Source: Clostridiales bacterium
GTDB lineage: Bacteria > Bacillota > Clostridia > Lachnospirales > Lachnospiraceae
NCBI GenBank assembly: GCA_021204085.1
Contig: JAJPZY010000144.1
Coordinates: 1-64,000 of the forward strand
Length of the DNA: 64,000 nucleotides
Reading direction: 5' to 3'
In this document: piece after piece, positions 36,602 through 41,662 of the stretch
How positions within the stretch are numbered: position 1 is the first letter of the stretch
How the letters are laid out: every line of letters starts with the position of its first letter
Notes under the pieces: model-generated
What the model was told of the DNA's origin: nothing
Database searches by the model: none
The model's input: only the letters and a program-made list of their open reading frames with translations
Translations under genes and position numbers: made by a program

Positions 36602-37525
36602 ATTTGCCACTATTTTATATACGGAAGTATGAGAATACGTCATGGGATCATTATGAGCGAAAAAAATAGTCCCATCCACCGGAGAAAGGATTCGCTCCAG
36701 CACTTCTCCCTCATACGGATCCAGAATTTCCGCCAGCAGTTCACCCTGGCTGACCGCCTGTCCGACGTTCACTTTTCCGTCAAAAATGCCGGACGCATCC
36801 GAGCGGACATTTGCCATTTCCCGGTCAGATACCACCTCAGAAATATATCCGTCATGAGATTTATAATTCAGAATTCCCTGTTTTCCGAGGAAATTCAATA
36901 CATACCGCACAGCCTGCATGGCTGATTCCCGGTCGATGGTGTCGGTACTCGCCGTGTAAACGCTGAATGCCTTGCTCTCCCAGATCTGCCAGTTATAGTT
37001 GAGCGTCGTCGTGTCGTAAGGCCGCACCTCACGGATAACCACATAAGGGAACCCGAATTGTTTCGCCAGTTCCACATCCTCCAGGCCGGTCCGCATCATC
37101 CGGACATGCGGAATAAAATTTCCCGGCATATAAAAACTGGTAAACTGCATGCCATATGTATAATCTTTGATTTCCTCAAAAATTCCCGCTGCGATGCGCT
37201 GCGTCGTCTCGCCGAGATTATATCCGGGAAACATGCGGTTGATATCACTGTTATCAATCGGCCAGAATCGTTTCTGTATGTTCATAGAATACGGATTCAT
37301 GGATGGAATAACTAAAATCTTATATCCGGGGTTTAACTTTCCCTTTTTCTCCAGCTGCTTCAGCTGACGAATGATCTGCGAACAGGTAAACAACTGCTGT
37401 ACCTCGTTGCCCCGGCAGCCGCCTACGATACAGGCTGACTTTTCTCCGCTTCCGAACTCATAGCCGGTCACACGAAAGTCATCCCTATACAGGGATTTTA
37501 TCTCATAAACAGTTTTTTTCGTCAT
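36590..37525 (-). CDS. M14/AstE-AspA-like protein, likely inactive
   Basis: Paralog of 37522-38454; GGCRGNEVQQ and MQFTSFYM replace the HxxE and DIHAS zinc motifs; DINRMFPG retained. Confidence 0.8.
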   Translation of the reverse strand: MTKKTVYEIKSLYRDDFRVTGYEFGSGEKSACIVGGCRGNEVQQLFTCSQIIRQLKQLEKKGKLNPGYKILVIPSMNPYSMNIQKRFWPIDNSDINRMFPGYNLGETTQRIAAGIFEEIKDYTYGMQFTSFYMPGNFIPHVRMMRTGLEDVELAKQFGFPYVVIREVRPYDTTTLNYNWQIWESKAFSVYTASTDTIDRESAMQAVRYVLNFLGKQGILNYKSHDGYISEVVSDREMANVRSDASGIFDGKVNVGQAVSQGELLAEILDPYEGEVLERILSPVDGTIFFAHNDPMTYSHTSVYKIVANIQN

Positions 37526-38454
37526 AGCACATCCTCCAGAATTCGCGCAAGCAGAGACCCCTCATCTACTACCGGATACTCCCGGATGGTAAACAGCAGC
37601 CCATCCGTCGGTGAAGTAACGTGATCCAGTTCCTCGCCGGTCATCGGATTTACAATGCTTCCGATAAAATCACCCTGTTTCACCCGGTCGCCATGCATCG
37701 CATTTTTGATAAAAATCCCGCTGTGCGGCGCGTTTAAGAAACTGACCTTTCCGTCCTCAGAGATAATGGGATCTGTCGTAACCGCGATATCCTCCTGCCA
37801 GATGCCCAGATCATGCATCAGATGAAAAATTCCGTCTGTCAGCCGTTTTCCGTATTCTTTTGTAATCCGCATACCTACGCCCATCTCCACAACAATGGTT
37901 GCCACGCCTCTCGCGTTCATGGTATGCGCCAGCGTAGACTCCAGAACAGTGCTCGCTGCGTGCACCCAGATAAAATCCAGATTCAGCTTTTTCGCAAGAG
38001 GCACAAGCTTCTCACTGGTATTGACATTGATTCGCGCCTGCGGCATCTCCGTCAGGAAAATATTGCTGGCGTGGATGTCAATGCACACATCCGCCCCATC
38101 CAGATCATTACAGATTTCCGATGCCACATACTCTGTCATACTTCCATCCCGGTTTCCCGGAAACAGGCGGTTCATATCCAGATCAAACGCCGGAATTCCC
38201 CGGGTCAAAGAATCAATTCCCAGCGGATTCATCGCCGGGTAGATATCTACCGTACCGGTCAGGAGCTCTTTTCTTTCCCGAATCCTTCGCAGAACCTCAT
38301 AGCAGACATACTGCCCTTCCAGTTCATCTCCGTGCGTCCCCGTTACAATACAGATCCGCTTGCCGCAGTCCGCCCCGTCCGGGGTCACCCGCATTTTTCT
38401 TATATTTAAAACTTCGTCCACGGGCAGGCCCACGGACGCTACGTTCTTAATCAT
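37522..38454 (-). CDS. M14/succinylglutamate desuccinylase-aspartoacylase family metallohydrolase
   Basis: IVTGTHGDELEGQYVC (HxxE), DMNRLFPGNRDG, DVCIDIHASN, TIVVEMGVGM. Confidence 0.9.
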   Translation of the reverse strand: MIKNVASVGLPVDEVLNIRKMRVTPDGADCGKRICIVTGTHGDELEGQYVCYEVLRRIRERKELLTGTVDIYPAMNPLGIDSLTRGIPAFDLDMNRLFPGNRDGSMTEYVASEICNDLDGADVCIDIHASNIFLTEMPQARINVNTSEKLVPLAKKLNLDFIWVHAASTVLESTLAHTMNARGVATIVVEMGVGMRITKEYGKRLTDGIFHLMHDLGIWQEDIAVTTDPIISEDGKVSFLNAPHSGIFIKNAMHGDRVKQGDFIGSIVNPMTGEELDHVTSPTDGLLFTIREYPVVDEGSLLARILEDVL

Positions 38455-38574
38455 ATTCTGTAATGCTATCCTTTCTACCTTTTTACTGCATGTGTTTGCC
38501 GAAGATTACCTTTCACATTCGACAGACACATTTTTTCAAGCCATTCAGACTATATTTGTTTTTTCTGAGATTTC

Positions 38575-38790
38575 GTCCGTATGTTTTCGTATCCAATACG
38601 GACTGATTTTATCCTTCCTGCAATCTCGTCCGTATACTTTCATATCCCATACGGACTAAATCCAACAATTCCTTCAATTTCGTCCGTATCTATTCTTACC
38701 CCTACGGACAAGTTCACATACTATACCACATTGATCCGTATGACGCAACATGACATACGGACTGTTTTTATATAACTTGTCTTTTGTCCG
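38575..38790. repeat. Array of four GTCCGTAT-n12/13-ATACGGAC dyads plus a fifth half-site, 52-54 bp period
   Basis: Left arms start at 38575, 38628, 38682, 38734, 38786; right arms at 38596, 38649, 38702, 38755. Confidence 0.92.
38720..38748 (-). promoter_or_regulatory. Candidate promoter overlapping the fourth dyad
   Basis: Minus strand TTGCGT-17 nt-TATAGT, directed toward 38454. Confidence 0.4.
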
Positions 38791-38857
38791 CACAACGTCT
38801 CCATTTATATAGAAGATTTTTTATATGCTCCAATGTTTGCCATGTTTCCTTTACCAT

Positions 38858-39646
38858 TCACCCCGTCTCGTGATCGCTCACGATGACGGACACACTCTGC
38901 CGCTGCATCCCGCCGCCGATCATCATACCCTTGTTCATCTGGCAGTCCGCAGCGTCTCTGCCGCAGGAAATGAAGATATACTGGTCGTCCGCCTCACGGC
39001 CGTTTGTCGGATCGACACCATACCAGATGCCGTCCTCGCAGACTTCCACCCATGCATGGCTTGCGCCCTCGCCGATCATCATACCTACCACATATCGGGC
39101 AGGTATGTGCTCCAGACGCAAAAGCGCCAGCAGAATATGCGCATAATCCTGGCAGACGCCATGCCGGGAAGACAAAGCTTCCTCCGCCTTTGTAGAAATG
39201 CCGGTGCTGCCCGGCAAATATACCATATCCCGATATAAAAGATTCATATAGTACACCGCTGCCTCCCGCGCAGACATACCGAATACCGGGTGACTGCGCC
39301 AGTACGCCCGGATGGCATCTCCCGCTTTCGTATAGTAAGAAGAATAACGGTATTTTCCCAGTCCTTCCGTCTTTGCCGGACGTCCTGCAGACAGCCCGGT
39401 TCTGGCCAGTCCCTGGACGGTTATCCGAAAAAGACGGTGCGGCTGCTCCACAATTCCGCATAGCGTCTGATTTCCGAAAGAATCAACGCTCGTGAAATTC
39501 TGACTCTCCGGATCCAGAAAAATCCGGATTCCGTCAATCTCCTGCACCGCATCGCTTTTCGGGAAACATTTCAGGGTGTAATTGTGCTTCATTGCCGGTT
39601 CAGAGAACATCAGACTCATCTGATAAATAAAATGCAGTTCTCTCAC
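38858..39646 (-). CDS. Transglutaminase-like domain protein
   Basis: SSRHGVCQDYAHILLALLRLEHIPARYVVGMM ... SHAWVEVCEDGIWYGVDPTNG (Cys-His-Asp triad). Confidence 0.93.
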   Translation of the reverse strand: MRELHFIYQMSLMFSEPAMKHNYTLKCFPKSDAVQEIDGIRIFLDPESQNFTSVDSFGNQTLCGIVEQPHRLFRITVQGLARTGLSAGRPAKTEGLGKYRYSSYYTKAGDAIRAYWRSHPVFGMSAREAAVYYMNLLYRDMVYLPGSTGISTKAEEALSSRHGVCQDYAHILLALLRLEHIPARYVVGMMIGEGASHAWVEVCEDGIWYGVDPTNGREADDQYIFISCGRDAADCQMNKGMMIGGGMQRQSVSVIVSDHETG

Positions 39647-39683: not shown

Positions 39684-40355
39684 TTATACGGACATGATTA
39701 TAAGATTTTCAATCAGATTCACAATCCGGTAGTAATCTATCTGTTCCGCTGACGCGAGTTCCTCAATCTCGTCCAGATATTCCTTATGATAGCGCATACC
39801 GCTCTGCTCCACTCTTGGTCTTAAGCGTCCCAGTTCGCGTAGAATCTCTGCGCCATCCATACCCAAACGCGCATAGAGATCAATCCGCTCAATCCGCTTT
39901 CCGGCTTTCAGAACATTCCGAACCTGCGGATTGTCTACTTTGTCATCCATAATCCCCCAGAATGCCATGATGTGATCAATGACTTCCTGCAGCGGCAGTA
40001 GCGGCGCCTCGCTGATCTTTGCCTCCTGTATATCATAAATCGCCATCTGTATATACGCCAACGCCTCACTGCCCATGATTTCACGCATGATAATGCTGTT
40101 ATCATAAGCACGGGTAAGATTGCTGATGATGGAGTTCGGATCCTCCGTATCAAAAGGATATCTCTCACGGAATGAATCGGCGGAACCGTAGATATCCGGG
40201 ATATCCAGTTTCTCATAAAAGATATGATAGTCCCCCATCAGGTCAATCATGGAATCATAACTCTCAAAATACAGGCAGAGCGTCGTATAAACCCGCTCCG
40301 TATAACGCCCCAGCCAGAATAAATTATCAATATGCTCTAATGAGATAGTACCCAT
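39684..40355 (-). CDS. Alpha-E domain protein
   Basis: MGTISLEHIDNLFWLGRYTERVYTTLCLYFESYDSMID; adjacent to CP-ATP-grasp and transglutaminase. Confidence 0.88.
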   Translation of the reverse strand: MGTISLEHIDNLFWLGRYTERVYTTLCLYFESYDSMIDLMGDYHIFYEKLDIPDIYGSADSFRERYPFDTEDPNSIISNLTRAYDNSIIMREIMGSEALAYIQMAIYDIQEAKISEAPLLPLQEVIDHIMAFWGIMDDKVDNPQVRNVLKAGKRIERIDLYARLGMDGAEILRELGRLRPRVEQSGMRYHKEYLDEIEELASAEQIDYYRIVNLIENLIIMSV

Positions 40356-41662
40356 GTGTCTTTAAATCCTCCTCCCTGTGATGAATTGACAATAAACGAA
40401 TCCGGATTCCGGGTAAACCGCGTCAGACCGCTCTTCCAGACCATCGGCTCATCCGCCATCAGGACAAACGCCCGCAGATCCGCTTTCCGCTGCACGATCT
40501 TATCCCCGTCCATGATATCCATATCTTCGAAATCAATCACTTCCTGCGCAATAAACCGCCGCGGCTCCGCTTTCAGCAGGGAAATAAAATCCGCCTTCTG
40601 CTGCTTTGTCATCGTGTTGCCGAAGACGACGCCGTAGCCGCCGGCTTCCGCCACATCCTTTAACACCAGATCATCAAAATGCTCCAGAACATAGGCCATA
40701 TCCTCCTCATAGAACGGCAGATAGGTCGGCGCATTGTTCAGAATCGGCTCCTCGCCCAGATAATACTTTATCATCTTCGGGACAAAGTAATAAATACCCT
40801 TATCATCCGCCACACCGTTGCCCGGCACATTCATAAGTGCCACATTGCCCTTGCGGAACACATCATAAATGTGCGGCACGCCAATCAATGATTCCGGCTT
40901 AAAGTTCATCGGATCCAGATAATCGTCGGAAATTCTGCGGTAAACCGCGCCGACACGCTCTTTTTTCCCGGAATAATCCTTAAAGTAAAGGACATCATCC
41001 TCCACCACGAGATCCTGGCCGATCGCCAGCGTCGACCCGGTTTGCTCCGCCAGATAAGAATGCTCAAAATAAGCGAAATTGAACCGTCCCGGCGTCAGGA
41101 TTACATTCAGACCGCCGGTATTGACATAGTCCATCGTCTTTTTCAGCAGGTCCGCATAGTTACGGTTATCCTCAATTTTCACCTCACGGAATGTCTTCGG
41201 AGAGCTCATCCGGCAAAGCTGTCTGGCAATCATCGGGTAAGATGCACCGGAGGGCACCCGCAGGTTATCCTCCAGTATGTACCACTCCTTATCCTTGCCA
41301 CGCACCAGATCGATACCGGAAATATGGGAAGAAACATCGCGCACCGGACATACGCCTTCGCATTCCGCCATATAACCGCTGGAAGCAAAAATAAAGTCCT
41401 CAGGAACCACGCCGTCTTTTACAATCTTCTTCTCCCCGTAAATATCTTTCAAAAATAAGTTCAGCGCCTTCACCCGCTGCTTTAACCCCCGCTCCAGATA
41501 ATCAAACTCATCCGCGCCGATCACCCGCGGAATCGCGTCAAACGGAAACAGCTGCTCGTGAAAAACATTATTTTTGTAAATACCGAATTTCACGCCGTAG
41601 CGTGCCAGCAGCCGATTGACCTTATCTGTATTCTGGAACAGATCCATGTCATAAAACTCCAT
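40337..41662 (-). CDS. Circularly permuted ATP-grasp type protein
   Basis: RGKDKEWYILEDNLRVPSGASYPMIARQLCR; LILTPGRFN-type region (VILTPGRFNFAYFEHSYLAEQTG); DLVLKDVAEAGGYGVVFG. Confidence 0.92.
   Translation of the reverse strand: MEFYDMDLFQNTDKVNRLLARYGVKFGIYKNNVFHEQLFPFDAIPRVIGADEFDYLERGLKQRVKALNLFLKDIYGEKKIVKDGVVPEDFIFASSGYMAECEGVCPVRDVSSHISGIDLVRGKDKEWYILEDNLRVPSGASYPMIARQLCRMSSPKTFREVKIEDNRNYADLLKKTMDYVNTGGLNVILTPGRFNFAYFEHSYLAEQTGSTLAIGQDLVVEDDVLYFKDYSGKKERVGAVYRRISDDYLDPMNFKPESLIGVPHIYDVFRKGNVALMNVPGNGVADDKGIYYFVPKMIKYYLGEEPILNNAPTYLPFYEEDMAYVLEHFDDLVLKDVAEAGGYGVVFGNTMTKQQKADFISLLKAEPRRFIAQEVIDFEDMDIMDGDKIVQRKADLRAFVLMADEPMVWKSGLTRFTRNPDSFIVNSSQGGGFKDTWVLSH

Follow-up and report, generated by a model that had tools for sequence, protein, structure and literature searches.

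Between a transglutaminase-like (TG) gene and a pair of M14 genes, the window (the whole stretch of 64,000 nucleotides analysed, from contig JAJPZY010000144.1) carries a tandem series of short inverted sequences, and the question it raises is whether such a series controls the adjacent genes, acts as RNA hairpins or belongs to something that is not tied to this locus. The features concerned are as follows, where R stands for TACGGAC and L for GTCCGTA.

37522–38454, minus strand: first M14/AstE-AspA-like gene, downstream of the array (Pfam AstE_AspA_cat)
38455–38857, no strand: intergenic region bearing the insert, from the TG gene to the first M14 gene (about 403–407 bp)
38544–38581, minus strand, arms read on the plus strand: R-24-L unit at the M14-proximal end, composed of degenerate TTCAGAC, 24 bp (the gap of the family) and GTCCGTA
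38597–38634, minus strand: R-24-L unit TACGGAC-N24-GTCCGTA, both arms exact
38650–38688, minus strand: R-25-L unit TACGGAC-N25-GTCCGTA, both arms exact
38703–38740, minus strand: R-24-L unit TACGGAC-N24-ATCCGTA, with a weak TATAGT promoter-like hexamer in its spacer
38756–38792, minus strand: R-23-L unit TACGGAC-N23-GTCCGCA, at the TG-proximal end of the array
38858–39646, minus strand: transglutaminase-like gene, upstream of the array (Pfam Transglut_core)

Composition of the array and its repeated unit

Counting the degenerate TTCAGAC at 38544 and GTCCGCA at 38786, the window array consists of ten half-sites, or five R-24-L units, at 38544–38792. The L half-sites start at 38575, 38628 and 38682 (GTCCGTA), 38734 (ATCCGTA) and 38786, and the R half-sites at 38544, 38597, 38650, 38703 and 38756, which gives L-to-R gaps of 15, 15, 14 and 15 bp and R-to-L gaps of 24, 24, 25, 24 and 23 bp. 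All coordinates of the preliminary description were correct on re-check; it had missed the degenerate R half-site at 38544, and the array is slightly larger than it stated. The pattern GTCCGTAT-N(10–16)-ATACGGAC matches twice in the window and not once in 100 dinucleotide shuffles, and an origin by chance is excluded.

The sense RNA of the window array has a marked folding potential (z = −4.5), and a terminator scan of the window detected none. A promoter, TTGCGT-17-TATAGT, had been proposed within the array; it matches the consensus at only 8 of 12 bases, the promoter scan gave no excess in the region, and the promoter is not confirmed.

The repeated unit was defined on a family set of 137 arrays with about 1,007 half-sites, in which the copies are related and all counts are consequently inflated. 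The arms are perfect in 817 of the half-sites. The L-to-R gap is 15 bp in 387 of 403 cases, a value somewhat favoured by the seed patterns, in which it was fixed, and the R-to-L gap is 24 bp in 371 of 467. The first arm of an array is TACGGAC and the last GTCCGTA in 67 cases vs. 6 with the opposite ends, a polarity seen separately in genomes G353, G236, G109 and in the source genome, G000 (2.93 Mb). This polarity identifies TACGGAC-N24-GTCCGTA as the repeated unit and the 15-bp gap as a linker. The dyad GTCCGTAT-N13-ATACGGAC of the preliminary description is therefore real but corresponds to the linker side. The core arm is 7 bp long, and the eighth base of the arm as initially described (GTCCGTA-T/A-TACGGAC) is nearly free in the family.

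In general form, the module is a tandem of TACGGAC-N(22–25)-GTCCGTA units joined by 15–17-bp linkers, with a period of about 53 bp (five turns). The period stays near 53 bp despite shifted inner gaps: 15 + 24 in G000, 16 + 23 in G353, and 15–17 with 22–23 in G109. When arrays are read on the A-rich strand, A-tracts occur at three positions of the 24-bp spacer, namely next to the first arm (GAAA), midway and ahead of the second arm, and the linkers are purine-rich. AAA/TTT periodicity in long arrays is strongest at 10.5–10.75 bp, although any harmonic of 53 gives some signal; together with the constrained gap lengths, it bears out the helical phasing noted initially. The number of units varies locally, with orthologous arrays between the same flanks having 9 vs. 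11, 12 vs. 8 and 13 vs. 14 half-sites.

Distribution of the family and constraint on its arms

The source genome contains 13 exact dyads, all with a 13-bp gap, vs. none for the reversed control pattern; at up to 3 mismatches, there are 70 dyads vs. 12 for the control, spread over about 20 places. Among 20 genomes of the genus, 10 have tandem arrays, as compared with 0 of the 78 other relatives in the first sample. A search of 85,462 species for the exact pattern yielded 95 stretches; the titled stretches listed (L023–L102) all come from Lachnospiraceae or Clostridiales MAGs, and the named sources are goat rumen or omasum and water buffalo caecum. A scan of 397 family members added three further genera (G109, G236 and G353), and the arms in G353 are GTACGTA/TACGTAC. 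Overall, the arrays come from a small number of gut Lachnospiraceae, mostly of the rumen. No arrays were found in the viral contigs, phages and plasmids searched, with the viral scans covering exact GTCCGTA arms only. Rfam gave no match to the array, the literature on the motif, on Lachnospiraceae MITEs and on rumen repeats contained nothing describing the array family, and it is apparently undescribed so far.

The arms change much more slowly than the DNA between them. Between adjacent units, 5% of arm positions differ vs. 32% of 15-bp spacer positions. Length changes numbered 16 per 1,114 substitutions in the 15-bp spacer (0.014 per substitution) and 65 per 1,728 in the 24-bp spacer (0.038), vs. 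458 gap opens per 3,133 mismatches in noncoding flanks (0.146 per mismatch), so that array spacing is held 4–10 times tighter than flanking DNA; the chain search takes a narrow gap range and undercounts long indels in these figures, and a spacing survey unrestricted below 120 bp found few other spacings.

The same contrast was observed across genomes. In 16 pairs of orthologous arrays with homologous flanks on both sides, which share genomes and are thus non-independent, divergence was 0.029 in arms and 0.230 in spacers, about 8 times less in arms, and arms diverged less than spacers in all 16 pairs. For the window array against its orthologs in G001 and G007, the values were 0.048 for arms and 0.28–0.34 for spacers, with flanks 18% diverged. 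Since arm divergence between species is lower than spacer divergence, the arms have been kept in place after insertion; they are probably still recognised within living cells of the host, as opposed to being debris of dead transposons.

Mobility and genomic neighbourhood

The array is an optional occupant of the TG–M14 junction. The junction is 17 bp long in three array-free congeners (G004, G014 and G016), 35 bp in G006 and 109 bp in G017; in G002 it is 334 bp long, again with no array, and contains a different inverted-repeat element. With the array, it reaches 621 bp in G001 and 671 bp in G007, and the orthologous arrays of these two genomes differ in unit number. The clpC-radA junction shows array turnover of the same kind. 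A motif search across the genome and upstream of orthologs, proposed in the preliminary description, returns abundant other copies, but upstream of orthologs the array is optional.

A second, unrelated inverted-repeat element of about 190 bp (GACACGTTGATTTCTTGACTTTCCTTGCGCCGCC...) lies between the TG and M14 genes with or without the array (L130 in G007, L129 in G001, L131 in G002), which suggests an insertion hotspot. Upstream of the TG gene, two genes at 39684–40355 and 40337–41662 (minus strand) have no NCBIfam match; we presume a resemblance to the alpha-E/circularly permuted ATP-grasp partners common beside such transglutaminases.

Recent copies in G007, G010, MI.10_7 and UBA3820 carry terminal inverted repeats (TIRs). 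These are of the GTTACTTTTCACGGGG type in the first three, with GTTACTTTTCACGGGG...CCCCATGAATAGTAAC 604 bp apart around the G010 array, and of a different, AACATGCACTTACAGTGC type in UBA3820. Eleven arrays at different loci of MI.10_7 are 80–91% identical, flanks included. A 229-bp derivative in G015, with a single half-site left, is flanked by an 8-bp TSD (TATAGAAT); this deletion derivative has the sole clear TSD, and none was clear at the 604-bp G010 copy. In a generic TIR test (score of at least 13), 7 of 101 arrays vs. 3 of 202 controls were positive, three of the seven being array units themselves, and no TIRs were seen around most old copies, the window copy included. The 604-bp element leaves too little room for a transposase gene of the usual size; its one ORF (L038:3921–4346) was scanned within the pooled Pfam tally. 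An autonomous transposon partner was not found; at IS66 loci, suspected from the 8-bp TSD, the TIR of the array element was absent from the flanks examined. Because recent copies carry TIRs and one derivative has an 8-bp TSD, the arrays appear to travel in MITE-like elements.

Neighbouring genes in the source genome include ClpC/RadA, LuxE/LuxC, MoeA/MOSC, RecO, EF-Tu, GreA, GH94 phosphorylase, FGAR amidotransferase and others. Among 103 flanking proteins, no recurrent family was found (126 Pfam families, none in more than two), and a regulon defined by flanking gene function is ruled out. Arrays also sit in convergent and divergent intergenic regions; genes were called by a simple longest-ORF rule, and these intergenic classes are therefore approximate.

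Three other observations concern individual neighbourhoods. A long array of the source genome (L007, contig C60; 8 dyads) adjoins genes for a phage-type integrase and a PD-(D/E)XK nuclease family transposase. At clpC-radA in G007 (C246, ~11016; L189/L193), an array with alternative arms, TGTGTCA-13-TGACACA, has a period of 52 and a purine-rich sense strand and adjoins a degenerate GTCCGTA unit; it is a unique copy, found nowhere else among the 61 genomes searched, and we do not count it as a second array family. At the recO loci (L153–L171), RecO residues 181–226 are aligned in G000, G001, G002, G007, G010, G011, G015 and G017 and absent in G014, G016, G006 and array-free congeners, in parallel with array abundance. 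This presence and absence is probably phylogeny; an origin of the ~45-residue stretch from an array was considered, and no array was found within the gene.

Several known repeat systems resemble the array in part. CRISPR arrays share palindromic repeats and regular spacing, but here the repeats are two separate 7-mers, the spacers of any one array are divergent versions of one another, and the arrays are dispersed between genes with no recurrent cas family among the flanking genes. Serine-resolvase res sites have inverted half-sites (TGTCYRNTA) in several phased dyads and form one short compound site beside a recombinase gene. The phased inverted dyads are shared, and the half-site loosely resembles GTCCGTA; in contrast, the array is an open-ended tandem at about 20 loci with no recurrent recombinase among the flanking genes, and the literature search for res sites with a 53-bp geometry found nothing.

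The pneumococcal BOX element (boxA-boxBn-boxC) is intergenic, with terminal modules, TIRs and TSDs, a proposed IS mobilisation in trans and no clear link to gene function (PMC3049150). As compared by description, the array shares its modular build and variable number of internal units; unlike BOX, its unit is made of helically phased inverted arms with a 53-bp period, arms and spacing persist from genus to genus as the rest drifts, and its strand agrees strongly with transcription (48:7).

DNA or RNA and the candidate explanations

The family is a real interspersed repeat of the BOX/REPIN kind, unusual in that only two short arms and a helical geometry are conserved. On balance, we favour a small interspersed repeat, MITE-like and non-autonomous, as the source of the array, which would form its internal module and provide phased sites for a putative DNA-binding protein. 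Such a protein is the most likely recogniser, although none binding the array was found in this analysis. It would be sequence-specific, binding the 7-bp arm through the major groove, and would also contact the adjoining A-tract on the 24-bp side. Separations of 3 and 2 turns between arms would place successive dimers on the same side of the helix, and the A-tract-rich DNA between them is probably curved. Possible candidates are a transposase or accessory protein belonging to the element and an architectural protein of the host.

The arrays might instead act as RNA, as the preliminary description also considered: sense transcription would give tandem hairpins with purine-rich loops of 24 nt, and these would determine how stable mRNAs are or how they are processed within operons. 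Such roles have been proposed for REP, ERIC and BOX. We regard this reading as unlikely. It is consistent with the agreement between the A/purine-rich strand and the coding strand of flanking genes (48:7; background intergenic AT skew 0.057), with the good folding of the sense RNA (71 R24L and 53 L15R hairpins in minimum-energy folds, besides the z-score given above), with the excess of G-U-preserving over pairing-breaking transitions on the A-rich strand (80 vs. 54) and with the GTACGTA/TACGTAC arms of G353 and G011, in which both arms changed together and complementarity was kept. However, pairing-breaking transitions are far from excluded, A-C mismatch variants are almost as frequent as G-U variants (TACAGAC 24 vs. 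GTCTGTA 31), exact compensatory pairs are not in excess (R24L 4 vs. 2.5 shuffled; L15R 0 vs. 1.6), and no covariation among arm variants exceeds shuffling, so that arm variants lend the hairpins little support. A hairpin, moreover, needs neither a base-exact loop length nor a 53-bp period. The helical spacing, the kept 53-bp sum despite shifted parts (15 + 24, 16 + 23 and 17 + 22) and the convergent and divergent locations favour DNA recognition.

The strand bias itself probably arises because the opposite strand reads as a stem followed by a T-run, which is terminator-like: at least four T occur within the eight bases after the stem in 52% of antisense vs. 4% of sense cases. Elements inserted the opposite way inside operons would probably be lost. 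Intrinsic terminators usually have a longer stem and a shorter loop, which would limit this account. Transcription explains the orientation bias better than the replication strand does: where the flank opposes the contig majority, arrays follow the genes in 7 of 7 cases, albeit in small numbers.

That the arms are remnants of transposase sites in a plain selfish MITE, conserved through the youth of the copies, is improbable. The TIRs, the 8-bp TSD, the recent MI.10_7 burst, the random neighbourhoods and the empty sites agree with it, but orthologous arms stayed conserved after the species split while spacers reached a divergence of 0.28–0.37, and the same arms lie within elements of different TIR (UBA3820). 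Far less credible is control of the M14 pair by a looping array or a cooperative operator. The phased dyads and a weak promoter-like site do lie upstream of the first M14 gene; against this, similar arrays occupy about 20 places by unrelated genes, convergent regions included, the same junction lacks the array in G002, G004, G006, G014, G016 and G017, and the promoter is not above chance. Of the cooperative regulator array proposed initially, the phasing and a probable protein-binding function stand, and the control of the M14 genes does not.

Mobilisation by a REP-associated tyrosine transposase (RAYT), as for REPINs, is the least probable of the explanations considered. Like REPINs, which form tandem clusters of extragenic inverted doublets whose arms are conserved and whose spacers vary (PMC3116915), the arrays are clustered, extragenic inverted doublets with free spacers; REPINs/BIMEs differ in having a longer REP hairpin, as compared with 7-bp arms at a fixed 53-bp period. 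Several array-rich genomes have no RAYT: array-bearing G000, G001, G006, G011 and G016 lack Y1_Tnp (PF01797), and G009, G012, G013 and G019, which are free of arrays, have it.

More tentatively, the DNA-binding explanation might extend to docking platforms for a DNA-architectural protein that mobile elements distributed and the host then maintained. Some gut Lachnospiraceae would have about 20–40 such phased, sequence-specific nucleoprotein nodes per chromosome, which could serve organisation, partition or transcription insulation, and the recognised arm would have changed from GTCCGTA to GTACGTA between genera. After insertion, interspersed repeats of bacteria as a rule either decay or keep the whole hairpin; two 7-bp arms and their helical spacing, kept alone across species and genera beside any gene, would be the signature of an undescribed recogniser. 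This raises the question of a mobile repeat turned into a chromosomal protein-binding platform, and it cautions against taking such arrays for local operators.

Several arrays are followed by a conserved sense-strand hairpin of the GGCGGTCGAAATCGGCTTTGCCTGCAAAATCGACCGCC type (L038 3734–4337, L061, L009 and L071) with no Rfam match, which may be the 3′ module of the element.
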